Positions 22,641 to 50,715 of a DNA stretch of 64,000 bases are shown here, one piece after another (position 1 is the stretch's first letter; each line of letters opens with the position of its first letter). The DNA lies in contig DATEHU010000017.1 in NCBI GenBank assembly GCA_035279405.1, positions 62,001 through 126,000 on the forward strand, written 5' to 3'. A program made the position numbers and the translations under genes. Source of the stretch: Gammaproteobacteria bacterium (GTDB lineage: Bacteria; Pseudomonadota; Gammaproteobacteria; Natronospirales; REEB76). The notes beneath the pieces are model-generated. The model searched no databases and was not told the DNA's origin. It was given only the letters and a program-made list of their open reading frames with translations.

Positions 22641-23147
22641 TCAGTGCGTGACGGCCGGTGGGAGCTTGATGATCTTCAGCTGCGAGCGCATGGCACTGCC
22701 ACACATTTCACGGAGTGTCATGCCGGCCACGTAGGCGGGTTGCAGCACGCCGTTGATGGTGAACGCGTGGTATTTGAAGCCGCGCTTGTCCTTGTCAATC
22801 AGGAATTGGAATATCGCGGTCGCAGGTTTGCCGCCGTAGGTAACGATGCCGCTGACATTGACGAAATCGCGACCTGTGGAATCCGCGCCGGCTTCCCAAC
22901 GCGGTGAGGCGAGGTAACTGTCCACTTGCTGTTCCACGCTGCGTTGCGTGCAGTCATTCAGCGACGAGGTTTTCACCAGCGCGATGACACCGGGGTCGGG
23001 TATCCACTGTGGAGCGGCCGTCAGCAGCGCGCTGGGGGAATGGGCGTTGGCGGGCGATTGACCGGACGTGGACTGGCCGCAACCCGCGCTCAGCCCCGCG
23101 GCCGTCACCAGCGCCGCGGCGATCACTGTCCATTGCATGCAGTACAT
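22641..23147 (-). CDS. Lipoprotein sharing a domain with the downstream membrane protein
   Basis: A 168-residue predicted lipoprotein: signal VIAAALVTAAGLSAGC with lipid Cys at about 23, then a Ser/Gln-rich linker and a C-terminal domain of about 110 residues. That domain (DPGVIALVKTSSLNDCTQRSVEQQVDSYL to VAGMTLREMC) is clearly related to the end of the neighbouring gene product at 23200-24138: both have PRWEAGADS, GRDFVN and AIFQFLIDKDKRGFKYHAF. No described function is known to me. The two genes are adjacent on the same strand and are probably a duplication followed by fusion to different N-termini. Confidence 0.75.
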   Translation of the reverse strand: MYCMQWTVIAAALVTAAGLSAGCGQSTSGQSPANAHSPSALLTAAPQWIPDPGVIALVKTSSLNDCTQRSVEQQVDSYLASPRWEAGADSTGRDFVNVSGIVTYGGKPATAIFQFLIDKDKRGFKYHAFTINGVLQPAYVAGMTLREMCGSAMRSQLKIIKLPPAVTH

Positions 23148-23199
23148 CTGCGCGTCTCGTTTTCGGAAAGCAACATGAATGTTGTCGGCGGTGCGGCGA

Positions 23200-24138
23200 T
23201 TATCGCGCGCCTCGGTCCCGGGGCGTAAGCGTCATCGGCGCACGGTTGGCGCTCGCGCACATCTCCATGAGCGTGAGTGCGGCGACGTATATGGTCTGCG
23301 GCACTCCGTTGATGGTGAAAGCATGATACTTGAAGCCGCGCTTGTCCTTGTCAATCAGGAACTGGAACACGGCCGCGGTCGGCCGTCCGTTGTAGGTGAC
23401 CCCGCCGTGGATGTTGACAAAATCGCGACCCCGGGAATCGGCGCCGGCTTCCCAGCGGGGCGCTGCCAGAAATGCGTTGACTTCCTGCTCCACGGTGCGC
23501 TGCTTGCAGTTGTCGAGATAGGAACTTTTCACCAGGGGAATGTCACCGGCGTCCGGCATCCAGCGCGGGTCGGCAGCGAGCAGCCCCTGGTTCTGCCTTT
23601 GTTCCGCCGCCACCTGCGCCGCCGTGGGTTTGGCGTAGCCGGTCTGGATGATGACCGCAGCCAGCACTACGCCCGCAATTAGCACCAACTCCACGACGAG
23701 CGCACCCGCCAGCCAGTTGCCGAGCTGCCAGCGCCGTCGCGTCCGCAGGTAGGCCGGGTAGCCGGCCGGCCAGAGCAGCGTCACCAGCGCCAGCCAGCCG
23801 AGCATGGTTTGCATGGGGCGCCCGGAGTCCCACGCGGCCGGGGACTGGAAAATCTCGCTGGCCGCGAACGCGCCGCACACCAGCACCATGAGCACCAGCA
23901 CCAGGACGAGTCCGACCGTCGAATGGGTGGCGAGCGCCACCGCCAGCAACGCCACGGCCGCCAGCACCGGCGTAGCCAGCAAGAAAATGCCGTGATCCGC
24001 ACTCGTGGTGCCCGAGGCCAATAGCTTGCGCGCCACCGGCGCGCCGGGCGAGGCGCCGCACTGCGCGCAGCGACTGCCGGGCACGGTGTGCGCGCCGCAG
24101 TGTACGCAGGTCGTCGGAGTGTTGCCGCCGGTTGTCAT
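23200..24138 (-). CDS. Zinc-ribbon membrane protein with the same C-terminal domain as its neighbour
   Basis: A 312-residue protein. The N-terminus has a double Cys-pair zinc ribbon (CVHCGAHTVPGSRCAQCG), followed by four or five transmembrane helices (residues about 50-190), then an extracytoplasmic domain from about residue 200 to the end. The C-terminal domain shares PRWEAGADS and FQFLIDKDKRGFKYHAFTING with the lipoprotein at 22641-23147. The function is unknown; a ribbon at the N-terminus plus a multi-helix region resembles many zinc-ribbon membrane proteins without assigned role. The paired genes suggest interaction or exchangeable anchoring. Confidence 0.72.
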   Translation of the reverse strand: MTTGGNTPTTCVHCGAHTVPGSRCAQCGASPGAPVARKLLASGTTSADHGIFLLATPVLAAVALLAVALATHSTVGLVLVLVLMVLVCGAFAASEIFQSPAAWDSGRPMQTMLGWLALVTLLWPAGYPAYLRTRRRWQLGNWLAGALVVELVLIAGVVLAAVIIQTGYAKPTAAQVAAEQRQNQGLLAADPRWMPDAGDIPLVKSSYLDNCKQRTVEQEVNAFLAAPRWEAGADSRGRDFVNIHGGVTYNGRPTAAVFQFLIDKDKRGFKYHAFTINGVPQTIYVAALTLMEMCASANRAPMTLTPRDRGAR

Positions 24139-27381: not shown

Positions 27382-29184
27382 GTGAAACCTACTGATACCA
27401 CCCATCCCGACTACTTTCACAGGGTCGTGGATTGCCAATGGGCGTGCCCGGCCCACACCAACGTGCCTGAATACATACGCCTGATCGCCCAGGGGCGGTT
27501 TGCCGACGCCTACATGCTCAACCGGGAATCCAACGTGTTCCCCGGCATCCTGGGGCGCACCTGCGACCGGCCCTGTGAACCTGCCTGCCGCCGCGGGCGC
27601 GTGGATGAAAAACCCGTGGCCATCTGCCGGCTGAAACGCGTAGCCGCGGATTACAGGGAAGATATCCGTGCACGCCTGCCGAAAATCCCGCAACAGAAGA
27701 ACGGCAGGCGCATCGCCTGCGTGGGCGCGGGCTGCGCTTCACTTACGGTCGCCAACGATCTGCTGCCGCTCGGCTACCAGATCACGATGTTCGAAAAGCA
27801 GCATGAACCGGGCGGCCTGATGCGCACCAATATTCCCGCGTTCCGCCTGCCGGTCGCGGTGCTCACGGAAGAGATCGACATGATTCTCGACATGGGTGTG
27901 GACCTGAAGCTGGGTGCGCCGATCGACAGCATGCGCGCGCTGCTCGCGCAGGGTTTCGACGCCGTATTCGTGGGCAGCGGCGCACCGCGCGGCAAGAATC
28001 TCGAGATTCCCGGCCGCCACGCCGATGACGCGCACGTGCATATCGGCATTGACTGGCTGGAATCCGTGGCCTTCGGCCACATAAATTCGGTCGGCACGCG
28101 CGTGCTCATCATCGGCGCCGGCAATACCGCCATGGACTGCTGCCGTTCGTCGCTGCGCATCGGTGCCAGCGACGTGAAAGTCATGGCGCGCAAGCCGCTC
28201 ACCCTGACCAAGGCGTCCGACTGGGAACTGGAGGAGGCGGTCGAGGAAAGCGTAGCGATGGTTGAGTGCCACTCACCGAAGGAATTCGTGGTCGAGAACG
28301 GCAAGCTGCAAGGCATGAATTTCGAGGTGCTTGAGTACCACGAAGAAAATGGCCGGCTGAAATCGAAGAAAACCGGCGAGAAGTTTTTCCCGGCGGACGA
28401 CATCATTCTCGCCATCGGGCAGGAAAACGCGTTTCCCTGGATCGAAAACGATCTCGGCATCGAACTCGATCAGTGGCACGTGCCGGTGGTAAACAAGACC
28501 AGCATGCAGTCCACGCGCAATGGCGTGTTCTTCGGCGGCGACGCGGCCTTTGGTCCCAAGAACATCATTTGGGCGGTGGAGCACGGACATCAGGCGGCGA
28601 TCTCGATTCACAGGTACTGTAATGGCGAAGACATTGCCGAGCGCCCGGCGTACGGCATGAACCTCGTGAGCACCAAGATGGGAATCCACGAGTGGAGTTA
28701 CAGCAACAGCTATGACCCGTCCGCGCGGCGGCTGGTGCCGCACGTGAGCCTCAAGGAGCGCTTCAAGAAGATCAACATCGAAGTGGAACTCGGCTTCACG
28801 GCCGAGCAGACCGAAGTGGAAGTGGAGCGTTGTCTGAATTGCGACATCCAGACGGTATTCTTCGCGCCGCTGTGCATCGAGTGCGACGCCTGCATTGACG
28901 TCTGTCCCACGCACTGCCTTACCATCACCGCCAACGGCGAGGAAGCCGAGCTGCGCACACGCCTGAAAGCGCCGGCCGAGAATCTCACGCAGCCGCTGTA
29001 CGTGTCGGCAGCACTGAAACAAACCGGACGCGTCATGGTCAAGGACGAGGATCAATGCGTGCACTGCGGGCTGTGCGCTGAGCGCTGTCCCACGGCGGCC
29101 TGGGACATGCAGAAATCTACCGTGAAAATTGCCTACGCGGGCGATCTGTCAGCTCCGGTTGCGCCCGTGCGCAAGCGTGCTTGA
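27382..29184 (+). CDS. GltD-like NAD(P)H oxidoreductase fused to a 2[4Fe-4S] ferredoxin
   Basis: A 600-residue three-part protein. Residues ~1-90 are a Fer4_20 module (CPAHTNVPEYIRLI, then CDRPCEPACRRG); ~110-440 are two nucleotide-binding folds (GAGCASLT for FAD; IIGAGNTAMDC for NAD(P)H); the C-terminus holds two 4Fe-4S motifs CIECDACIDVCP and CVHCGLCAERCP. The architecture is that of glutamate synthase small subunit/NfnB-like enzymes. It is immediately upstream of a 2-oxoacid oxidoreductase alpha subunit (3 bases), so it probably passes electrons between NAD(P)H and the oxidoreductase's ferredoxin. The GTG at 27382 has a GGAG upstream; an earlier extension is not supported. Confidence 0.88.
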   Translation: MKPTDTTHPDYFHRVVDCQWACPAHTNVPEYIRLIAQGRFADAYMLNRESNVFPGILGRTCDRPCEPACRRGRVDEKPVAICRLKRVAADYREDIRARLPKIPQQKNGRRIACVGAGCASLTVANDLLPLGYQITMFEKQHEPGGLMRTNIPAFRLPVAVLTEEIDMILDMGVDLKLGAPIDSMRALLAQGFDAVFVGSGAPRGKNLEIPGRHADDAHVHIGIDWLESVAFGHINSVGTRVLIIGAGNTAMDCCRSSLRIGASDVKVMARKPLTLTKASDWELEEAVEESVAMVECHSPKEFVVENGKLQGMNFEVLEYHEENGRLKSKKTGEKFFPADDIILAIGQENAFPWIENDLGIELDQWHVPVVNKTSMQSTRNGVFFGGDAAFGPKNIIWAVEHGHQAAISIHRYCNGEDIAERPAYGMNLVSTKMGIHEWSYSNSYDPSARRLVPHVSLKERFKKINIEVELGFTAEQTEVEVERCLNCDIQTVFFAPLCIECDACIDVCPTHCLTITANGEEAELRTRLKAPAENLTQPLYVSAALKQTGRVMVKDEDQCVHCGLCAERCPTAAWDMQKSTVKIAYAGDLSAPVAPVRKRA

Positions 29185-29186
29185 AC

Positions 29187-30992
29187 ATGAACGCACGCGT
29201 CAACGACTTCGTCATCAAAATCGCCAACGTCAACGGCACCGGATCGGCGAGCGCCAACGGCCTGTTGATGAAGGCCGTCTTTCGCATGGGCATCCCGGTA
29301 GTAGGCAAAAATTTCTTTCCCTCCAATATCCAGGGCCTGCCCACCTGGTTCGAGATCCGCGTGAGCCGCGAGGGTTACCTGGCGCGCTCCGGGCGCGTGG
29401 ACCTCATGGTGGCGATGAACGCCCAGACCTATGCGCGCGATCTCGCCGAGGTCAGCGCCGGCGGCTACCTTATATATGACTCCACCTGGCCGCGCGACAA
29501 GCAACTGGTGCGCGAGGATGTAACTGTTATCGGCATCCCGTTCGCCCAACTGGTGAACGGCGAGTTCGAGAACGTGCGTGCCCGCGTGCTCATGAAAAAC
29601 GTGTGTTACCTGGGCGCGCTGGCGGCGTTGCTGGAAATCGACATGCAGGTGGTGGAGCAACTGCTCAAGGAAACCTTCGCCGACAAGCAGAAACTCATCG
29701 CCGGCAATCTCAAGGCCATCGAACTTGGCTATAAGTACACGAAGGAACACGTCACTTGTCCGTTGCCGTTGCGACTCGAGGCCATGCACAAAACCAATGA
29801 CCAGGTGATGGTGGACGGCAACATGATGGCGGCGCTCGGCTGCGTGTACGCCGGCGCCACCGTGGGCGCCTGGTATCCGATCACGCCGTCCACGTCACTG
29901 ATGGACGCCTTCAAGGAATACTGCGAGCGCTATCGCGTGGATCCGGGAACCGGCAAGCATCGGTATTGCATCGTGCAGGCCGAGGACGAGCTCGCGGCCA
30001 TCGGCATGGTGCTGGGCGCGGCCTGGAACGGCGCACGCGCCTTCACGCCCACCAGCGGCCCTGGCATCTCACTGATGAACGAGTTCATCGGCTTCGCCTA
30101 TTACGCCGAAATTCCCGCGGTGCTGTTCGATGTGCAGCGCGTGGGTCCGTCCACCGGCATGCCCACGCGCACCCAGCAGTGCGACATCCTGTTCTGCGCC
30201 TACGCCTCGCACGGCGACACCCGCCATGTGCTGCTGTTTCCCGCCGATCCGGGTGAATGTTTCCACATGGCGATCGCGGCCTTCGATCTCGCCGAACGGC
30301 TGCAGACGCCGGTATTCGTGCTCTCCGATCTCGACATCGGCATGAACGACTGGATGGTGCCGAAGATTCGCTGGGACGAGAACTACGTTCCCGACCACGG
30401 CAAGGTCTATACGCGCGCACAACTGGAGCAGATGCAGGTATTCCATCGTTACACCGACGCCGATGGTGACGGCATCCCGTATCGCACCTATCCCGGCGTG
30501 CACCCCAAGGGCGCATTCTTCGTGCGCGGCTCCGGCCATAACCGCCGTGGCGGCTATACCGAGGACGCCGACGAATATAAGGACGTGCTTGACCGGCTGC
30601 GGCGCAAGCACGACACGGCCAAGGAACTGGTGCCGGCGCCGGTCATCAAGAGCCGCAAGGGCGTCACCACCGCTGTAGTTTCGCTCGGCAGTTGCGATGC
30701 GGCGGTGCGTGAGGCGCTGGACGTGCTCGCGCGCGAAGGCACCGAGGTGAATTACCTGCGCGTGCGCGGTTTCCCCTTCAGCAAGGCGGTGGAGGAATTC
30801 TTGAGCCAGCATGAGCGGATTTTCGTGGTCGAGCAGAACCGCGATGCGCAGTTGCGATCGCTGTTATTGCTGGAAACCCACGTGGAGAAGCACAGACTGA
30901 ATTCCATCCTGCACTACGGCGGCATGCCCATGGATTCGCGCTGCATCGTCGAGGGCGTGAACCGCGCGCTCGCCAAACCTGCTGTGGCTTAG
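29187..30992 (+). CDS. 2-oxoacid:acceptor oxidoreductase, fused gamma-alpha subunit
   Basis: A 601-residue KorA-type protein. The first ~200 residues are the gamma domain (KIANVNGTGSASANGLLMKA), and the rest is the alpha subunit with YPITPSTSLMD and the SGPGISLMNE segment. Such enzymes decarboxylate 2-oxoacids (2-oxoglutarate or related) using TPP and iron-sulfur centres, making acyl-CoA and reduced ferredoxin. The substrate cannot be told from sequence. The start is the ATG three bases after the upstream stop, preceding NARVNDF. The beta subunit lies downstream but is separated by a repeat element of about 310 bases. The stop TAG lies in the degenerate end of that element. Confidence 0.9.
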   Translation: MNARVNDFVIKIANVNGTGSASANGLLMKAVFRMGIPVVGKNFFPSNIQGLPTWFEIRVSREGYLARSGRVDLMVAMNAQTYARDLAEVSAGGYLIYDSTWPRDKQLVREDVTVIGIPFAQLVNGEFENVRARVLMKNVCYLGALAALLEIDMQVVEQLLKETFADKQKLIAGNLKAIELGYKYTKEHVTCPLPLRLEAMHKTNDQVMVDGNMMAALGCVYAGATVGAWYPITPSTSLMDAFKEYCERYRVDPGTGKHRYCIVQAEDELAAIGMVLGAAWNGARAFTPTSGPGISLMNEFIGFAYYAEIPAVLFDVQRVGPSTGMPTRTQQCDILFCAYASHGDTRHVLLFPADPGECFHMAIAAFDLAERLQTPVFVLSDLDIGMNDWMVPKIRWDENYVPDHGKVYTRAQLEQMQVFHRYTDADGDGIPYRTYPGVHPKGAFFVRGSGHNRRGGYTEDADEYKDVLDRLRRKHDTAKELVPAPVIKSRKGVTTAVVSLGSCDAAVREALDVLAREGTEVNYLRVRGFPFSKAVEEFLSQHERIFVVEQNRDAQLRSLLLLETHVEKHRLNSILHYGGMPMDSRCIVEGVNRALAKPAVA

Positions 30993-31301
30993 GGTAACGG
31001 AAATGCACATTGCGGAAAAATCCCCCCGCGCGCCAAACGCTTGCCCCCCTTTGCAAAGGGGGGCGAGGAGCGAAGCTCAGAGCGGGCAGCCAGGGGCGAG
31101 TTGCGCCGCGATGAGCGGGCGGCCATGGATGGCCGCCCTGGACCCGGACACGGAGCAGGATTGCGGAGTGTTCGAGGCTGCCCTGGACTTTCGGGCGAAG
31201 CAGGATTGCGAAGCTCGAAAGAGAGGGGATTTCGGCAGCGCACAACGTGATGTCACGTTCAACTTGGCGGCCATCATTCACTTTGTTCGCACGAGAATTG
31301 T
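30988..31301. mobile_element. Dispersed MITE-like repeat, copy 1 (degenerate), between the alpha and beta oxidoreductase genes
   Basis: A non-coding stretch of about 310 bases that shares its core with the elements at 43770-44143 and 49990-50289: a run of C (AATCCCCCCGCGCG), a palindromic CCCCCCTTTGCAAAGGGGGG, GAAGC, GGGCAGCCAGGGGCG, GCGGGCGGCCATGGATG and CCCTGGACTTTCGG. Its left end reads CTTAGGG followed by TAACGGAAATG, a decayed version of the terminal repeat; the right end (CACTTTGTTCGCACGAG) is also decayed. The stop codon of the upstream gene is inside the left end. The element has no coding capacity and probably was mobilised in trans. Confidence 0.72.
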
Positions 31302-42558: not shown

Positions 42559-43776
42559 ATGCGAAACGCGCAGGAATATCTCGATGCGCTTGCGCGCCTG
42601 CCGCGCCCTTACCGTCTTATGCCGCCGGCGCGGGACGGTGCCGGTCAGCACGAAGCCGACACGGTAGAGGCCAACACCCGCGAATTCGCCTCCGCCAATC
42701 TGCACCATCTGCTGCCGGATATCCCGATGGCGGCACATCCACAAATCATTGATGAGATCCTGTTGCACCGGCTCATGGCGGAACTCGATGAGGACGGGTT
42801 ATTTCTATTGGGTAATACTCATATTGAAGACCCGCATTCGGTGCTAGCTGCAGCCAAGAACACGCCGGTCATATTCTGCACGTTCCACTTTGGGTCGTAT
42901 CGGCTGATTAATATGCTTCTGATGAGTCGAAGCTTTAACTATTTGCTCCCCGTGGAAGACCATATTTACACCGCTCAGAAAGCCATATTTATGGATCATA
43001 CCGAGGGATACAAGAAGCACTTCCATAGTACGCCCCAATTTGTGGTGGTAAATGCCGAGGAGCCTACGGCTGCGCTGACGATGGCGCGTAAGGCCAGAGC
43101 AGGCTGGTCATTGCTGGCTTACATAGACGGCAATACCGGCGTGCAGGGCGCGGCCAGGAAAGACGCCAAGATGCTCAAGGTTCCGCTACTCGGCCGACCG
43201 ATGTATGCGCGCAGGGGGATTGCCTTTCTGTCGCATTTCCTCAAACTGCCGATCGTGCCGGTCTTCTGCGAATTCACGGGCCCGGTGGAGAGACGTCTGA
43301 TTTTTCATGATCCGATCCAGCCGGGCGGAGCTGATACCGAGCGGGATGCGTATTGCCAATCCGCAACCGAACGGCTGTACGCGTTGCTCGGCACGTATCT
43401 CAAAAAGTCTCCTTCGCAATGGCTGGGCTGGCTGGACATGCAAATGTATCTTGATTTGGATGCTACTACTTCGCTCGAAACCATGGAAAACATGGGCACG
43501 GCCATGGATTCCGAAGGCGATGAAGTCGTGGCGCAGCGGCTGGTGTTCAATCATGAGCGCTTCGGATTTATCGTGCGCGAAGGCGAGCGCGTGCTGCTCG
43601 ATAAGTTTAACTACGAATTTCTGTCGGTGCCCGAAAGTGTATTCGCGGTGCTGGACGCGTGCCGTGAACCGGTGGCGGTAACCCGCCACATGCCGGAAGA
43701 ACACAGGGAAACCATCGAACAATTGTTATCGCTCAACTTGCTGTCGCCGGTCACGGACACGGTGCGCGGCACTTAG
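42559..43776 (+). CDS. LpxL-like acyltransferase fused to a PqqD/RRE-like C-terminal domain
   Basis: A 405-residue protein. Residues ~95-300 resemble the LpxL/HtrB lysophospholipid acyltransferase fold: CTFHFGSYRLINMLL, LLAYIDGNTG, VPLLGRPMYARRGIAFLSHFLKLPIVPVFCEF, and SPSQWLGW. The motif H-x4-(D/E) is H110-FGSY-R115, so the acidic residue is missing. Residues ~328-400 form three predicted strands (FGFIV, RVLLDK, YEFLSV) followed by helices (PESVFAVLDAC and EEHRETIEQLLSLNLLSPV), the pattern of PqqD-like peptide-binding domains. Codon use in the first third is AT-richer than neighbours, suggesting transfer. The ATG has AAGGA nine bases upstream. The TAG stop lies in the end of the dispersed repeat (copy 2). 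The assignment of the C-terminal domain is inference. Confidence 0.72.
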   Translation: MRNAQEYLDALARLPRPYRLMPPARDGAGQHEADTVEANTREFASANLHHLLPDIPMAAHPQIIDEILLHRLMAELDEDGLFLLGNTHIEDPHSVLAAAKNTPVIFCTFHFGSYRLINMLLMSRSFNYLLPVEDHIYTAQKAIFMDHTEGYKKHFHSTPQFVVVNAEEPTAALTMARKARAGWSLLAYIDGNTGVQGAARKDAKMLKVPLLGRPMYARRGIAFLSHFLKLPIVPVFCEFTGPVERRLIFHDPIQPGGADTERDAYCQSATERLYALLGTYLKKSPSQWLGWLDMQMYLDLDATTSLETMENMGTAMDSEGDEVVAQRLVFNHERFGFIVREGERVLLDKFNYEFLSVPESVFAVLDACREPVAVTRHMPEEHRETIEQLLSLNLLSPVTDTVRGT

Positions 43777-44143
43777 AGCGTCTAACGAAATGTGTGAAGA
43801 TGAAAATTCAATACGTCTGAAATCTCCCCTCTTTCGAACTTCGCTTGTTGGCTGCGCAGTCCTGCTTCGCCAAAAGTCCAGCCCATACATCCTGTATGGG
43901 CGTTCGCGGCGTTGCCGCTCACCCTGCTTCGTCCGAAAGTCCAGGGCAGCCCCGATCCTTTCGCCATCCTGCTCCGTGTTCGGGCCCGGGGCGCCCATCA
44001 ATGGCCGCCCGCGCATCGCTTCGCGATGTGCCCCTGGCTGCCCGCTCGGGGCTTCGCCCCTCGCCCCCCTTTGCAAAAGGGGGGCGCGCTTTGCACGCGG
44101 GGGGATTTGTCAGGAATGGTCATTTTGTTAGGTGCCCTTAGGA
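43770..44143. mobile_element. Dispersed MITE-like repeat, copy 2
   Basis: About 374 bases with terminal inverted repeats of 23 bases: 43770-43792 and 44121-44143, both containing the core CTAAC(A/G)AAATG (inverted at the right end). The inside matches copy 3 (49990-50289) in reverse orientation, including the CCCCCCTTTGCAAA palindrome region; an internal partial duplication of about 70 bases makes it longer. It has no coding capacity. The TAG of the acyltransferase gene (43774-43776) and the TAA of the GGDEF-EAL gene (44138-44140) both lie in its two terminal repeats. Confidence 0.82.
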
Positions 44144-46267
44144 GATGCGAAGCTCCGGAATCGGCTGAGACGGTCCGTTTGCCGGCATTTTGCTCAGCCA
44201 GTCCATGAATGTGCGTGCGTTCATCGGCTTGCTGATGAGATAACCCTGGAATCCCGGGCAGCCTAACAGGACCAGTGCGCTGCGCTGCGCTTCGGTTTCC
44301 ACGCCTTCCGCGATCACGTACAGCCCCATATTCTCGGCCATGGTGATGATGGTGCGGATGAACTGGTCGGGCAAGTCCAGTCGCATTTCGCTCACGAACA
44401 TGCGGTCAATCTTGAGCTCATGCAGCGGCAGCTTTTTGAGCGAGGCCAGCGCCGCATAGCCCGAGCCGAAATCGTCAATCGAGAAGCGTACGCCCAGGGC
44501 ACTCAGTTCGAGGATGGTCCGCGTGACTTCGGCGATATCCTGCAGTACCGCGCTCTCGGTGATTTCAAGCGTCAAACACGCCGGGTCAATGCCGCTCCGC
44601 GCCAGGCTGCGTTTTACCTTGCGCGCGAAGCCCGGTGTTGCGAGCTGCCAGGGACTGACATTGATTGCTAAGCGCGGCGGCGTGGCCAGGGTACCCCCGT
44701 TCCATTCCCGCAGATAGCGGCAGGCGCTTGTCAGCACGAACTCGCCGATGTCGTGAATCAATCCGGTCTCCTCGGCCACGGGAATGAATTGCTGCGGCTC
44801 GATCAAGCCGTAGCGCGGGTGGTTCCAGCGCAACAGGGCCTCGGCGCCAATCAGTTGGCCCTGGAAATCCATCTGCGGCTGGAAGTAAAGCTCAAGCTCG
44901 CCGCGATCCAGAACCGTGCGCAGTCCTTCCTCGATCACGAGGCGCAGGCGCGCATCCTGCTGCATCTGCGTGGCAAACAGCGCCGCGCGGTTGCGCCCCG
45001 TGGCCTTGGCGCGGTACAGGGCCATGTCGGCCTGACGGAACAGGGCGCCGACATCCGCCTGCTCGTCGCTGCTTTGGGCTTCCGGGAATACCGATACTCC
45101 TACGCTGCCACCCACCGAGAACTGCTGACCGTTGACGGCAAAAGGCTCGCCGAGCTTGTCACGCAAGGTATCCGCGGCCCGCATGGCTGCGGCCTCGGCC
45201 TGAGTGCGGTCCCGCCCGAGATTTCCGATCACCACCGCGAATTCGTCGCCGCCCAGGCGGCTGACGCAGCGTGTTTCCGGCAAGGCGTTGCGCAGGCGTT
45301 CGGCAATCAGGCGCAACAGCTTGTCGCCGACCTGGTGGCCGAGCGAATCGTTGATGGTTTTGAAATGATCGAGGTCCAGGAACACGATGGCGCCGAGATC
45401 GCCGCTGGTCTGATATTGCTGCAGGGTGGTATCGAGTATGGTGCGCAATTGCCGCCTATTCGGCAGGTCGGTCAGGGGATCGTGCGTCGCAAGATAATTC
45501 AGCCGCGCCTCGTAGCGTTTGCGCTTCGCGGTCTCCGCCTGCAGGGCGCCCACGGTTTTGTAGAATGCTTCTTCCCGGCGCCGCGTTTCAAGAATCAACG
45601 ACACGCCCATGATTACCACCAAACCCAGGAACGCGAATTGCCCGAGTTGGATGTATGGCTCATGCTTTGTACTCATAAGCTGGTCGCTTACCACTGCGGC
45701 AGCCTGGAGCAAAAAATAGGTGGTGAGCGGAAGCGCTTTGTAGTTCAGGCCCGCGTACCACATGGCCGCGCAGCGCCATAACGCCCACACGAATACTGCA
45801 TCATGCGTAGAACTGAAATACACAAAAAGCGGTCCGGCGGCATTATTCGCCCAGGAAAGCTTCTCACCAAAGAATACGAACGATGGCTCCATCACCCAAT
45901 CAGTGATAAACCAGTCACCTCCCGACCACAGGTAGGCGATAAGAAAACCAGCATAAATAACGCCGCAGGTTGCTACCCAAGATGAAAGCTTTCGCACTCT
46001 GGTGTATGTGCCGATGAACCAGACCGCCACGGGGAAAATAATGCAAATGAGGATGTTACGCAGGTCATATACCATCTTCATCAATGTCAAGGAATCGAGG
46101 GAGTAGTATTCTGCGGTCAGCGCCAAATCGGCGGCGATCAATATGGCGAGTACGCCAAACGACAGAAATGCAGTGTGCTGGGCGCGGATGTTTCCCGAGA
46201 TGCACCATACGCCGGCGGCCAGCGTGAAACCGGCGATGATCCACACGATCGGCAAAAACAATGGCAT
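44138..46267 (-). CDS. Membrane GGDEF-EAL protein, cyclic di-GMP turnover
   Basis: A 709-residue protein with seven predicted membrane helices in the first ~225 residues (starting MPLFLPIVWIIAGFTLAAGVWCI), a coiled segment, an intact GGDEF (SRLGGDEFAVVIGN) and an EAL domain (GAEALLRWNHP, then SIDDFGSGYAAL). Both catalytic motifs look complete, so it could make or break cyclic di-GMP. No RxxD inhibition site is evident. The protein is a paralogue of the neighbour at 46307-48448 along its full length. The stop is provided in the terminal repeat of the dispersed element. Confidence 0.9.
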   Translation of the reverse strand: MPLFLPIVWIIAGFTLAAGVWCISGNIRAQHTAFLSFGVLAILIAADLALTAEYYSLDSLTLMKMVYDLRNILICIIFPVAVWFIGTYTRVRKLSSWVATCGVIYAGFLIAYLWSGGDWFITDWVMEPSFVFFGEKLSWANNAAGPLFVYFSSTHDAVFVWALWRCAAMWYAGLNYKALPLTTYFLLQAAAVVSDQLMSTKHEPYIQLGQFAFLGLVVIMGVSLILETRRREEAFYKTVGALQAETAKRKRYEARLNYLATHDPLTDLPNRRQLRTILDTTLQQYQTSGDLGAIVFLDLDHFKTINDSLGHQVGDKLLRLIAERLRNALPETRCVSRLGGDEFAVVIGNLGRDRTQAEAAAMRAADTLRDKLGEPFAVNGQQFSVGGSVGVSVFPEAQSSDEQADVGALFRQADMALYRAKATGRNRAALFATQMQQDARLRLVIEEGLRTVLDRGELELYFQPQMDFQGQLIGAEALLRWNHPRYGLIEPQQFIPVAEETGLIHDIGEFVLTSACRYLREWNGGTLATPPRLAINVSPWQLATPGFARKVKRSLARSGIDPACLTLEITESAVLQDIAEVTRTILELSALGVRFSIDDFGSGYAALASLKKLPLHELKIDRMFVSEMRLDLPDQFIRTIITMAENMGLYVIAEGVETEAQRSALVLLGCPGFQGYLISKPMNARTFMDWLSKMPANGPSQPIPELRIS

Positions 46268-46306
46268 AGGGCTGCGCCCGCCTGTGGTTGCGGCTAGCCG
46301 CGGTTG

Positions 46307-48448
46307 TCAGCGGCCCCGGGTTTCGATCTTTACGTTTTGTTGCTGAACGTTCAACGTCGCGGGCGGCCGTGGCCGAGTGCCCAGCAGCCAATGCTCGAAT
46401 TCACGCACCGACAACGGCGCACTGATCAGATAACCCTGAAAGCCCAGGCAACCCATGGACATCAGCGCGGTGCGCTGCGCCTCGCTTTCCACGCCTTCGG
46501 CGATTACCAGCAGATTCATGGTCCGCGCCATGGCGATGATGGTCTCGATGAAATTGTCCTTGTGATCCAGATTCATCTCGTTGATGAACAGGCGGTCAAT
46601 CTTGAGTTCCCGCAGCGGCAGTTTCTTGATCGAGGCGAGTGCCGAATACCCGGAGCCGAAATCGTCTATCGAAAACCGCGCACCCAACGCGCTCAATTCC
46701 CGAATCGCATGCACCACTTCGTCCATGTCCTGCAGCAGGGCATGCTCGGTGATTTCCAGGGTCAGCCGCGTCGGCTCGATCCCGGCTGACTGTGCCGCGG
46801 ATTGCACTTTGGCGGCGAAGCCGCGCGTCGCCAGTTGCCAGGGGCTGATATTCAGCGACAGGCGCTCCGGTGCCGGCATGCGATCTTCATCCCAGGTGCG
46901 AATCTGCGTGCACACGTTGTGCAGGACAAAATCGCCGATGGCGTGAATCAGGCCGGTCTCTTCCGCCACCGGCACGAAATGCCGCGGCTCGATAAAACCC
47001 AGGTCCGGGTGAAACCAGCGCAGCAAGGCTTCGGCGCCGATCAATTTGCCCGTGACATCCACCTGCGGCTGGTAATACAGTTTGAGCTCACGGCGTTCGA
47101 GTGCGACGCGCAGCCCCTTTTCCACCACCATGCGCCGGCTGGCCTCGGCCTGCATCTGGCTGGCAAACACCGCGGAAGTGTTGCGGCCCGCGGCCTTGGC
47201 GCTGTAGAGTGCCATGTCCGCCTGCCGCAGGATGCCGCTTTCGTCGGCGTTGCTGTCCGGAAACACGCTGACACCGGTGCTGGCGCCGATGGTGAGTTCG
47301 CGTTGACCGATTTTGAACGGTTGCGCCAGGCTTGCGGTCAAGGTGTGTGCCGCGTGCAGAGCACGTGTGCGCGCCAAATCCCGGGTCTTTTCCAGGTTGC
47401 CCAGCACCACGGCGAACTCATCGCCTCCCAACCGGCAGACAAAGCGGCTCTCCGGCAGGGTACCGCGCAGGCGCGTGGCGACGAGTTTCAGCAGCTCATC
47501 ACCGGTGTGATGACCAAGGGAATCGTTGATGGTTTTGAAATGGTCCAGGTCCAGGAACACGATGGCGCCGAATTTCCCGGAGAGGCGATGCTGGGTCAAC
47601 GCTCCGCGCAGGACCTTGTGCAGCAGCCGGCGGTTCGGCAAGTCCGTGAGGAAATCATGGAAGGCCATGTGCTGCAGGTGCTCTTCGACGCGCTGACGCT
47701 GCAGGGTTTCGGTCTGCAGCGCGTCCACGTTCCGATCCAGCGCGCGGGCGCGTGCCTGCATCTCGCGCGGCAATGCAAAACTCATGATCAGGACCAGCGC
47801 CAACAGGGCAAAATCCGAATACGCCGGGCCGTGCAGATTCAGCGGGGCGATGATCTGGTCATGCAGTATGGCGGCCGACTGGATGATGAGGTACAGCGTG
47901 AGGGGCCAGGCGTTAGCCACCTGATCCCGGCGCCACAAAAGCACGCAGCGCCACAGCACCCAGATGAAAAATGCGGAAACGGCCGCGTGATAAAGATAAG
48001 CAAAAGGCCCTGGGTTTCCCGAAAACCCGGTCAGCATTTCATGCCAGGGCAATGCCAGCGGTTCCCCGGCGGTGATGGCGGAATACCACAGGCCGCGGAA
48101 CGGCAGGAGGTCCGCTATAAAAAGTGTGCCGAATAACAACCACGCACCGATCAACCAGTATCTGCGATGGCGCAGTTGTGTGAACTCGGCCAGGAACCAG
48201 ATCGCGGTGGGATAGGCCAGACACAGAACGGCAATCTTGATGTGTGCCAGCACCATAGCCGCTTCAATGGATTGCATTGCATAGAACGCAGCTGTCACCA
48301 CCATGCACAAGGCAATTAACACGCACAACAATCCGAACGCCAGAAAGCCGGGTTCACGGCGGCGCCACACACCCGAGATGATGAAATAAGTTCCCGCGAA
48401 CAGCGTGAAACCGGACGCCATCCAGATTGCTGGTATAAACAGGTGCAT
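46307..48448 (-). CDS. Paralogous membrane GGDEF-EAL protein
   Basis: A 713-residue protein with the same layout as the gene downstream: N-terminal membrane sensor of seven helices (MHLFIPAIWMASGFTLFAG), GGDEF (CRLGGDEFAVVLGN), and EAL (GAEALLRWFHP, SIDDFGSGYSALASIKKLPL). Both active sites appear complete. The start at 48448 aligns with the paralogue's start; an ATG at 48496 would add 16 unmatched residues. Its stop is 40 bases before the paralogue's start; the pair probably arose by tandem duplication and could sense different ligands with the same membrane domain type. Confidence 0.9.
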   Translation of the reverse strand: MHLFIPAIWMASGFTLFAGTYFIISGVWRRREPGFLAFGLLCVLIALCMVVTAAFYAMQSIEAAMVLAHIKIAVLCLAYPTAIWFLAEFTQLRHRRYWLIGAWLLFGTLFIADLLPFRGLWYSAITAGEPLALPWHEMLTGFSGNPGPFAYLYHAAVSAFFIWVLWRCVLLWRRDQVANAWPLTLYLIIQSAAILHDQIIAPLNLHGPAYSDFALLALVLIMSFALPREMQARARALDRNVDALQTETLQRQRVEEHLQHMAFHDFLTDLPNRRLLHKVLRGALTQHRLSGKFGAIVFLDLDHFKTINDSLGHHTGDELLKLVATRLRGTLPESRFVCRLGGDEFAVVLGNLEKTRDLARTRALHAAHTLTASLAQPFKIGQRELTIGASTGVSVFPDSNADESGILRQADMALYSAKAAGRNTSAVFASQMQAEASRRMVVEKGLRVALERRELKLYYQPQVDVTGKLIGAEALLRWFHPDLGFIEPRHFVPVAEETGLIHAIGDFVLHNVCTQIRTWDEDRMPAPERLSLNISPWQLATRGFAAKVQSAAQSAGIEPTRLTLEITEHALLQDMDEVVHAIRELSALGARFSIDDFGSGYSALASIKKLPLRELKIDRLFINEMNLDHKDNFIETIIAMARTMNLLVIAEGVESEAQRTALMSMGCLGFQGYLISAPLSVREFEHWLLGTRPRPPATLNVQQQNVKIETRGR

Positions 48449-48711
48449 ATTCCGCCTGTAACTACCTATGGAATATGAAGTTGTAAGCCTTGGCATGCTA
48501 CGCTAACAGCCGTATCCCTGCCAGCCTCTGCGCGCGGCCGTTGACAGGTCCCGCGGGCACAACGCAATGGATTGAAGGCATCGGCGTTTCGGCTAGACTC
48601 GCGCTTCAAGCCCGGTGCGGGCCTGCCCGGTGACGTTGGCCGTTTCGGCCGATTTGCCACGGGTCGCGGATATCAAAATGTTGTCTGACTCAGGAAATAT
48701 CTGAGCAGGTT

Positions 48712-49722
48712 ATGGCCATCGTGATGGAGAAAACGCTTTTGACCGAGCGCATTTCTTCCCGCAAGACCAAAGCCAAACGCCTGCCGGTGCGCCGGGCGGA
48801 ACGTGGTCTGGATGCCGGGCAGATTGTGCTGCCAACGGATGCCGTCGAGTTGGCGCCGCTCACTGCGCAAGTACAACACCTGGGCGGTACCGCCATCGGC
48901 GGATACCGCGAACCGTTTTCGGGACGTCCGGTGCTGCTCGCCACGCTGCCCATTGCCGCGGTCGCGCCCACACCATTCCAGCGCGATCTTTCACCCACGC
49001 ACACCAAGCGTCTGGCGCAGAAGATTGAAGAGAGCGGTTCGTTTCTCGATCCCATCATCGTGGTGCGCGGTGCGGACGGCAAACTGTGGACACCCAACGG
49101 TCGCCATCGCCTGGCTGCCGTCAAAGTGCTCGGGCTGAAACAGATCACTGCGCTGGTTTCGCCGGACGAGGCACTTGCGTTCCGCATTCTCGCGCTCAAC
49201 ACCGAGAAGGCCCACAATCTGAAGGACCGTGCACTGGAAGTGATCCGCATGGCACGCACGCTCGCCAAGAGCCGGCCGCGCGCCAGGGAAACGGAATTTG
49301 CGGCGGAGTTCGAGGCGCCGGAATTTCTCACTCTCGGAATTCTCTACGAGGATGACAGCCGTTTCGCGGGCGGCGCCTACAGTTCTTTCCTGAAGAAACT
49401 CGATCGTTTCGACGAGCACACGCTCACGGCGAGTCTTACCCGGCGGCAGGATTATGCCGCGCGCTTGCGCCAGATTGATGCGCAGGTCAAAAAGATCGTG
49501 GCGAAATTGCAGGCGCGCGGCTTCAAGTCGCCGTACCTACGCAACTACGTGGTAGCACGTATCAATCCGGTGCGCTGGGTGCGATTGAAGAAGAATGACA
49601 GGAAGCCGCCCATGCCACTGGCCGCGGCGCTCACGCGCATGGCGGCGGGGGCGCGTGATTTCAACGTGGAGTCGGTAAAGCCATCCGATCTCGCCATCGT
49701 CGCGGCCTTGTCTTCAGAATAA
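48712..49722 (+). CDS. ParB/sulfiredoxin-fold DNA-binding-like protein
   Basis: A 336-residue protein with a ParB-like N-terminal nuclease/CTPase-type domain from about residue 75: FQRDLSPTHTKRLAQKIEESGSFLDPIIVVRGADGKLWTPNGRHRLAAVKVLG. The GRHRLAA box is the typical nucleotide-binding segment. The C-terminal half is helical and unlike plasmid or chromosomal ParB. No parS-like sites or ParA are nearby, so it is not the partition system of this replicon. It is bordered by intergenic repeats. Confidence 0.83.
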   Translation: MAIVMEKTLLTERISSRKTKAKRLPVRRAERGLDAGQIVLPTDAVELAPLTAQVQHLGGTAIGGYREPFSGRPVLLATLPIAAVAPTPFQRDLSPTHTKRLAQKIEESGSFLDPIIVVRGADGKLWTPNGRHRLAAVKVLGLKQITALVSPDEALAFRILALNTEKAHNLKDRALEVIRMARTLAKSRPRARETEFAAEFEAPEFLTLGILYEDDSRFAGGAYSSFLKKLDRFDEHTLTASLTRRQDYAARLRQIDAQVKKIVAKLQARGFKSPYLRNYVVARINPVRWVRLKKNDRKPPMPLAAALTRMAAGARDFNVESVKPSDLAIVAALSSE

Positions 49723-49737
49723 TAAATTGCGGGAGCG

Positions 49738-49976
49738 ACTACATGTAGTTCTGTGGGAGCGGCGATATTCGCCGCGATTCCTGTATCACGGAATCGCTGC
49801 TGGGGCAGGCTCCTACTGCAGCCGCCGCGAAGCAATCGCTGCGCCGATTCAGGGAGCCTCTGGTTCATACCCCGTTCGCCCTGAGCGTAGCGGAGCGAAG
49901 TCGAAGGGTGAACGGCAGCCCCCCGAATCTCAAGGCGCAATTCCGTCCGTACTTCGACAGGCTCAGCACGAACGGA
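49738..49976. repeat. Cluster of intergenic palindromic repeats
   Basis: Three REP-like signatures in a row: GGAGCGGCGATATTCGCCGC (stem GCGGCGA with its complement, near 49755-49775), a related AGGCTCCTACTGCAG region, and the pair TTCGCCCTGAGCGTAGCGG (from 49874) with CTTCGACAGGCTCAGCACG (from 49950), which are common intergenic palindromes of proteobacteria. They precede dispersed repeat copy 3. No gene is present in this stretch. Confidence 0.7.
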
Positions 49977-49989
49977 ATTGATCAGAGTT

Positions 49990-50289
49990 TCCTTGGGGCA
50001 CCTAACAAAATGACCATTCCTGACAAATCCCCCCGCGCGTAAAGCGCGCCCCCCTTTGCAAAGGGGGGGGCGAGGGGCGAAGCCCCGAGCGGACAGCCAG
50101 GGGCACATCGCGAAGCGATGCGCGGGCGGCCATGGATGGGCGCCCTGGGCCCGAACACGGAGCAGGATGGCGAAGGGATCGGGGCTGCCCTGGACTTTCG
50201 GACGAAGCAGGGTTGCGCAGTCCGAAAGAGGGGGGATTTAACGTGTGCCTGGTGATGACCACCGTACATTTTGTTAGACGCTCTTAGGA
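49990..50289. mobile_element. Dispersed MITE-like repeat, copy 3
   Basis: A 300-base element, the cleanest copy. Terminal inverted repeats are 49990-50012 and 50267-50289 and share 18 of 23 positions, with the inner core CTAACAAAATG identical. The interior contains the C-rich AATCCCCCCGCGCG, the CCCCCCTTTGCAAA palindrome, GAAGCCCCGAGCGG and CCCTGGACTTTCGG, and ends GAAAGAGGGGGGATT. It has no coding capacity. The stop codon of the CBS gene (TAA, 50284-50286) is inside the right terminal repeat. Confidence 0.83.
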
Positions 50290-50715
50290 ATTGATGTACT
50301 GGCGCAGGGATTCCGCTTCCGCGGTTTTTTCCTGCAGGATGGCTTTGACCAAATCGCCGATGGACACGATGCCCACCAGCCGGCCCCGGTCCACCACCGG
50401 CAGGTGGCGGAAGCGTTTCAGGGTCATGCGCTGCAACAGATCCTCGATACGCGCGTCCGGGTGCACGGTCTCGACCGGTGTGCTCATGATTTCCGCGAGC
50501 CGCATGCCGCCGAGCTGAGCGCCGTGGCGCGCGAAGCGCCGCAGGATGTCGCGCTCGGTGACGATGCCGGCTATGTCACCGCCGCGTCCGAGCACCACCA
50601 ATGCGCCCACGCCACGCTCGGTCATGAGTTGCGCAGCGGCCGCGGCGCGAGTGTCTTCCCCGGAAGTGACCACCTCGTGGACCGGCTTGTTCTGCAATAC
50701 TTGCGATACGAACAT
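50284..50715 (-). CDS. CBS-domain pair protein
   Basis: A 143-residue stand-alone protein of two CBS motifs. The first is HEVVTSGEDTRAAAAAQLMTERGVGALVVL with GIVTERDILRRFARHG; the second is MSTPVETVHPDARIEDLLQRM with RHLPVVDRGRLVGIVSIGDL. Such proteins bind adenine nucleotides and regulate partner enzymes; the partner is unknown. The stop lies in the end of repeat copy 3 (final residues INS). Confidence 0.92.
   Translation of the reverse strand: MFVSQVLQNKPVHEVVTSGEDTRAAAAAQLMTERGVGALVVLGRGGDIAGIVTERDILRRFARHGAQLGGMRLAEIMSTPVETVHPDARIEDLLQRMTLKRFRHLPVVDRGRLVGIVSIGDLVKAILQEKTAEAESLRQYINS

Follow-up and report, generated by a model that had tools for sequence, protein, structure and literature searches.

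Non-autonomous IS5-family elements at gene stop codons in a gammaproteobacterial genome: a probable outcome of target sequence and loss of genic insertions

Why should genes end exactly where a dispersed repeat begins? The question is raised by four junctions in the stretch of gammaproteobacterial DNA analysed here (64,000 nucleotides, referred to as the window), at which the stop codon of a gene coincides with the edge of a repeated sequence. We consider it very probable that the repeats are non-autonomous IS5-family MITEs, and that their CTWAG target, together with the loss of insertions within genes, explains the position of the stops, with no recognition of stop codons being required. The features concerned are the following.

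29181 to 30992, plus strand: 2-oxoacid:acceptor oxidoreductase alpha gene, ending at MITE C
30989 to 30991, unstranded: left duplication TTA of MITE C
30990 to 30992, plus strand: TAG, the stop codon of the oxidoreductase alpha gene
30992 to 31283, unstranded: MITE C, an old, decayed copy (right boundary set by hand, approximate)
42559 to 43776, plus strand: lipid A acyltransferase-like gene (weak Pfam match), ending at MITE A
43773 to 43775, unstranded: TTA duplicated at the left of MITE A, identical to the right copy
43774 to 43776, plus strand: stop TAG of the acyltransferase-like gene, of which TA belongs to the duplication and G opens the element
43776 to 44137, unstranded: MITE A, 362 bp, with inverted ends GAGCGTCTAACGAAATG / GGGCACCTAACAAAATG
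44138 to 44140, minus strand: right duplication TTA of MITE A, which is the stop TAA of the GGDEF-EAL gene
44138 to 46267, minus strand: GGDEF-EAL gene, ending at MITE A
49993 to 49995, unstranded: TTG immediately left of MITE B, a degenerate duplication
49996 to 50283, unstranded: MITE B, 288 bp long and in the opposite orientation to A
50284 to 50286, minus strand: right duplication TTA of MITE B, which is the stop TAA of the CBS-domain gene
50284 to 50715, minus strand: CBS-domain gene, ending at MITE B

All four stop codons lie where the preliminary description had placed them, and two of the junctions indeed read TCC-TAA (the other two being ACT-TAG and GCT-TAG). Its further statement that the stops are situated inside the terminal repeat and in a single register has to be corrected: the duplicated target contains the whole of TAA, and of TAG only the G comes from the element, while TAA starts at position -3 and TAG at position -2 from the element boundary. 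The region 44138-48496 carries two adjacent GGDEF-EAL paralogues, both on the minus strand, with DNA stretches 71-76% identical.

One MITE family accounts for repeats A, B and C; its intact ends carry the terminal inverted repeat GRGCRYCTAACAAAATG. The family is dispersed in the window's own genome (G000, 2.46 Mb), where 56 matches to A, complete or partial and including A itself, were counted. MITE C is common to G000 and the sister genome G004, where it occupies the same place, and its right end is decayed. The span 44121-50289 stretches between the right-hand ends of A and B; a composite A-B element was ruled out, since A and B have separate boundaries and hence represent two insertions.

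The RNA of these elements is predicted to fold into one long hairpin from either strand (-159 kcal/mol for A and -150 kcal/mol for B), and that of a 130-bp copy (L037, 1505-1634) into a hairpin of -60 kcal/mol. Such a structure could serve as a terminator between convergent genes. Other repeat-like stretches, one palindromic and GTGGGAGCGGCGATATTCGCCGC-like, another CTTCGACAGGCTCAGCACGAACGG-like, adjoin MITE B at 49740-49985. Elsewhere in the window (22676-23531) there is a 300-bp direct repeat, 71% identical and 556 bp apart, which probably represents duplicated gene segments.

The same terminal repeats were found in sister genomes, where pairs lying 891 bp apart (G001 and G008) flank two ORFs. 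PF13340 and PF01609 are matched by these ORFs, of which the second also satisfies the NCBIfam model NF033580 (“IS5 family transposase”) with 134.8 bits against a cut-off of 110. A search at E 1e-12 returned seven transposase matches, located in three of the 11 genomes of the genus, and none in G000, so for the latter genome we infer mobilisation from the shared ends. The transposase of the parent IS (L073, 758-1531) is split over two overlapping ORFs with an A-rich stretch, GGGGGAAAAAAAC; judging from this arrangement, it is possibly produced by programmed frameshifting.

Relatives of the parent IS in other bacteria were examined at 41 of 80 loci. The best-scoring pair of ends was bordered by identical 3-bp repeats in 28 of the 41 (a scoring which favoured identical repeats), and in 27 of these the repeat was TTA or TAA. 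The relatives with identical repeats come from Burkholderiales genera, from Latescibacteria, from Planctomycetales and from others. The parent element may belong to a subgroup of the IS5 family with a TNA or YTAR target, for which IS427 and IS1031 are candidates.

Within the genus, flanking trinucleotides were identical in 20 of the 29 paired elements and were TTA or TAA in 19 of those, whereas the outer bases beside the duplication were mostly C and G, which gives the context C-TWA-G. Searching with joined flanks revealed element-free alleles in relatives, as listed below, the clean ones with a single copy of the target.

C33:188815: clean empty site in G004 (some 300 bp at 95%)
C26:162124: clean empty site in G002
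g4_C150: clean empty site in G002
g7_C72: clean empty site in G010
g7_C74: clean empty site in G008
g7_C88a: less clean empty site, the G010 allele being substituted at the target
IS_g8_C31 and C34:189199: less clean empty sites, the empty allele differing at the target
g4_C177: less clean empty site, the G000 allele having TAA with differing bases before it

An element-free allele of MITE A itself was not found in the relatives. In the reconstructed MITE A site, CACTTAGGAG, two convergent genes share four bases, and each of them retains its stop. CTTAG and CTAAG spell a stop on both strands, TAG in one direction and TAA in the other. Once 3 bp have been duplicated, TNA still adjoins the first G of the element on either side, which accounts for TAA at -3 and TAG at -2. 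Because the preferred target bears a stop on both strands, insertions are often located exactly at gene ends and leave the genes intact.

The stops might have arisen in another manner, also put forward in the preliminary description, namely that the termini of the element have evolved to supply a stop, so that an element entering near a gene end truncates it cleanly. The sequence of the element is compatible with this: it begins with G, so that a TTA target yields TAG in one frame, and a TAA target in frame yields TAA. The C-termini of 14 junction genes and of the oxidoreductase were compared with those of orthologues, and 11 of them were countable (outside this number were A right, C11:80221 and g4_C30, which are without a close orthologue, and C21:48546, whose sole orthologue seems to carry the element too). 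For nine of the 11 (C33:188815, C26:162124, C33:67770, C17:184351, g4_C150, g7_C62, g7_C88a, B and C) at least one element-free orthologue ends at the same codon (net difference of 0). Two other orthologues of C33:67770 stop two codons later, and another orthologue of C17:184351 stops two codons earlier. In the tenth gene (g7_C72) the end of the orthologue is one codon away.

The remaining gene is the acyltransferase at A left. Its homologues, 43-49% identical in their C-terminal portion, stop 5 to 6 codons sooner; this junction is thus not a clean match, and it speaks for stop-supplying termini. At the B and C junctions relatives use TGA where G000 has TAA (B) or TAG (C), which leaves the target at the time of insertion unproven for these two. 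On the other hand, the stop is already present in empty sites: at five sites that are element-free in relatives (C33:188815, C26:162124, g4_C150, g7_C72 and g7_C88a) a natural stop lies at the insertion point or at most one codon from it. The agreement of orthologue ends indicates that natural stops were the landing sites and that the genes were not truncated; the preliminary description had itself named such agreement as a result that would speak against it. With no truncation among the 11 genes, an origin of the stops in the termini of the element appears very improbable.

Two of these loci deserve separate mention. The C21:48546 insertion seems to be common to G000 and G004 (L307 and L043), one genome having TAA as the stop and the other TGA, which seems to reflect drift of the stop codon within the target duplication. 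At the g4_C150 site, which carries a MITE in G004, the G000 orthologue has TAG followed by decayed sequence resembling the terminal repeat (L192 and L205); this may reflect two separate hits at one place or an insertion common to both genomes.

The four cases in the window were picked after the fact and, taken alone, might be attributed to chance. We surveyed 104 terminal-repeat ends (at most 3 mismatches) in the genus loci examined. At 49 of them a codon-scored ORF stopped close to the boundary, and 47 of these 49 stops were placed between -90 and -1. Exactly at -3 or -2 were 20 of the 47, compared with about one expected under an even spread over 90 positions (P = 5e-21). The claim that the overlap exceeds coincidence is borne out by this survey, and chance as its cause is scarcely conceivable.

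The insertions were also set against real CTWAG sites. A control with simulated insertions was dropped, since it creates stops inside genes and is therefore no measure of natural stops. The background comprised the CTTAG and CTAAG sites outside elements in 864 kb of G000, annotated with one gene caller: of these 106 sites, 16 lay on a gene stop, 51 inside genes and 39 in intergenic DNA. On the side of the elements, g2_C39 was left out of 30 (it is the same insertion as g0_C21_74116), which gave 29 independent insertions; MITE C was added by hand, its ends being too decayed for the terminal-repeat search. Exactly on a gene stop were 9 of the 15 insertions in G000 and 14 of the 29 in the genus. 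Compared with all CTWAG sites (16/106), this corresponds to P = 8.5e-5 and P = 2.6e-5, respectively; compared with the sites outside gene interiors (16/55), P = 0.012 and P = 0.023. It should be borne in mind that the genus-wide values set insertions in G001, G004, G007 and G008, genomes of unchecked composition, against a background from G000 only.

Could the transposase or a partner seek gene ends (terminator hairpins, convergent junctions) beyond the CTWAG sequence? The G000 comparison with non-genic CTWAG sites (9/15 against 16/55) points in this direction, as do several insertions between convergent genes (A, C26:162124, C11:80221 and C21:48546). However, when the copies that prompted the analysis (A, B and C) were removed, 6 of 12 insertions in G000 and 11 of 26 in all remained on stops, with P about 0.10 each against 16/55. 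The baseline itself rises from 29% with the gene caller to 41% (23/56) under a looser ORF criterion. At the level of ends, moreover, exact stops were found at 23 of 41 background CTWAG ends outside gene interiors, compared with 20 of 47 at element ends (P = 0.29). Among the relatives of the parent IS in other bacteria, an ORF of at least 100 aa stops at the junction in only 4 of 41 (L226, L239, L242 and L277; composition uncontrolled), so autonomous copies elsewhere are not strongly bound to gene ends. Active seeking of gene ends is, in our view, distinctly unlikely. With A, B and C counted, the insertions on stops still exceed the 16/55 baseline modestly; without them the excess is weaker.

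Given the 16/55 baseline and the absence of an end-level excess over real CTWAG sites, target sequence and the loss of genic insertions explain most or all of the pattern. The notion that the element targets sequences around stop codons is thus valid as a description, in view of the five empty sites, and not as special recognition, since the CTWAG pentamer and the loss of genic insertions suffice. The MITEs would owe their movement to an IS5-type transposase provided in trans; insertion duplicates 3 bp of target, mostly TTA or TAA and usually within C-TWA-G. In this genome of 62% GC the CTTAG and CTAAG sites are rare, and half of them are outside genes or on gene stops. Insertion into a stop codon leaves a stop on either side, rebuilt from the duplication and the first base G, so that even convergent genes overlapping by four bases, as at the reconstructed MITE A site, keep both. 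Selection would then remove insertions inside genes and thereby enrich those at stops. The coincidence with stop codons is real, and the effect is tidy, if mostly ordinary.

This offers a simple reason why some bacterial mini-transposons occupy stop codons: the target is a stop on both strands, repaired by its own duplication. It also calls for caution, as a stop codon at the edge of a repeat need not imply truncation of the gene. A bolder possibility, which we regard as unlikely, is that the C-TWA-G specificity of this IS5 group is an adaptation, combining the stop on both strands with the first base G; the gene ends of GC-rich genomes would then be safe harbours, where even overlapping convergent genes can be entered without damage.

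The elements are of a known kind, IS5-derived MITEs. They resemble IS5-family ISs (NF033580, PF13340 and PF01609) and the MITEs derived from them in the transposase domains of the parent and in inverted ends starting with G, and they share with the family a short, A+T-centred target duplication, the MITE ends matching those of the parent IS. In the open-access literature we found no description of IS5-type elements landing on stop codons. The term “stop codon” occurs nowhere in a review of MITEs (PMC10969869), and the portions considered of PMC2229807 and PMC12730594 contain nothing bearing on such landing. Another MITE gave one gene a premature stop, as related in part of PMC6382973. MITEPsy1 of Pseudomonas syringae (100 nt) inserts at CTAG or YTAA and duplicates its target (PMC3189936); it differs from the present MITEs in its terminal repeats and in a duplication of 4 nt instead of 3 bp. 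Two of its six genomic copies interrupt loci, and the sections of that article dealing with the element mention no link to stop codons. A published precedent, judging by its description, for repeats with natural stops is provided by the pneumococcal BOX repeats (PMC3049150): of 58 CDSs that they overlap at the extreme 3' end, 36 have their stop encoded by the repeat. According to the relevant part of that report, repeats are enriched between convergent genes, with no strong evidence that the gene ends bearing them are truncated. The stop is there said to be encoded by the repeat, whereas in the MITEs described here it resides in the duplicated target at the boundary of the element.
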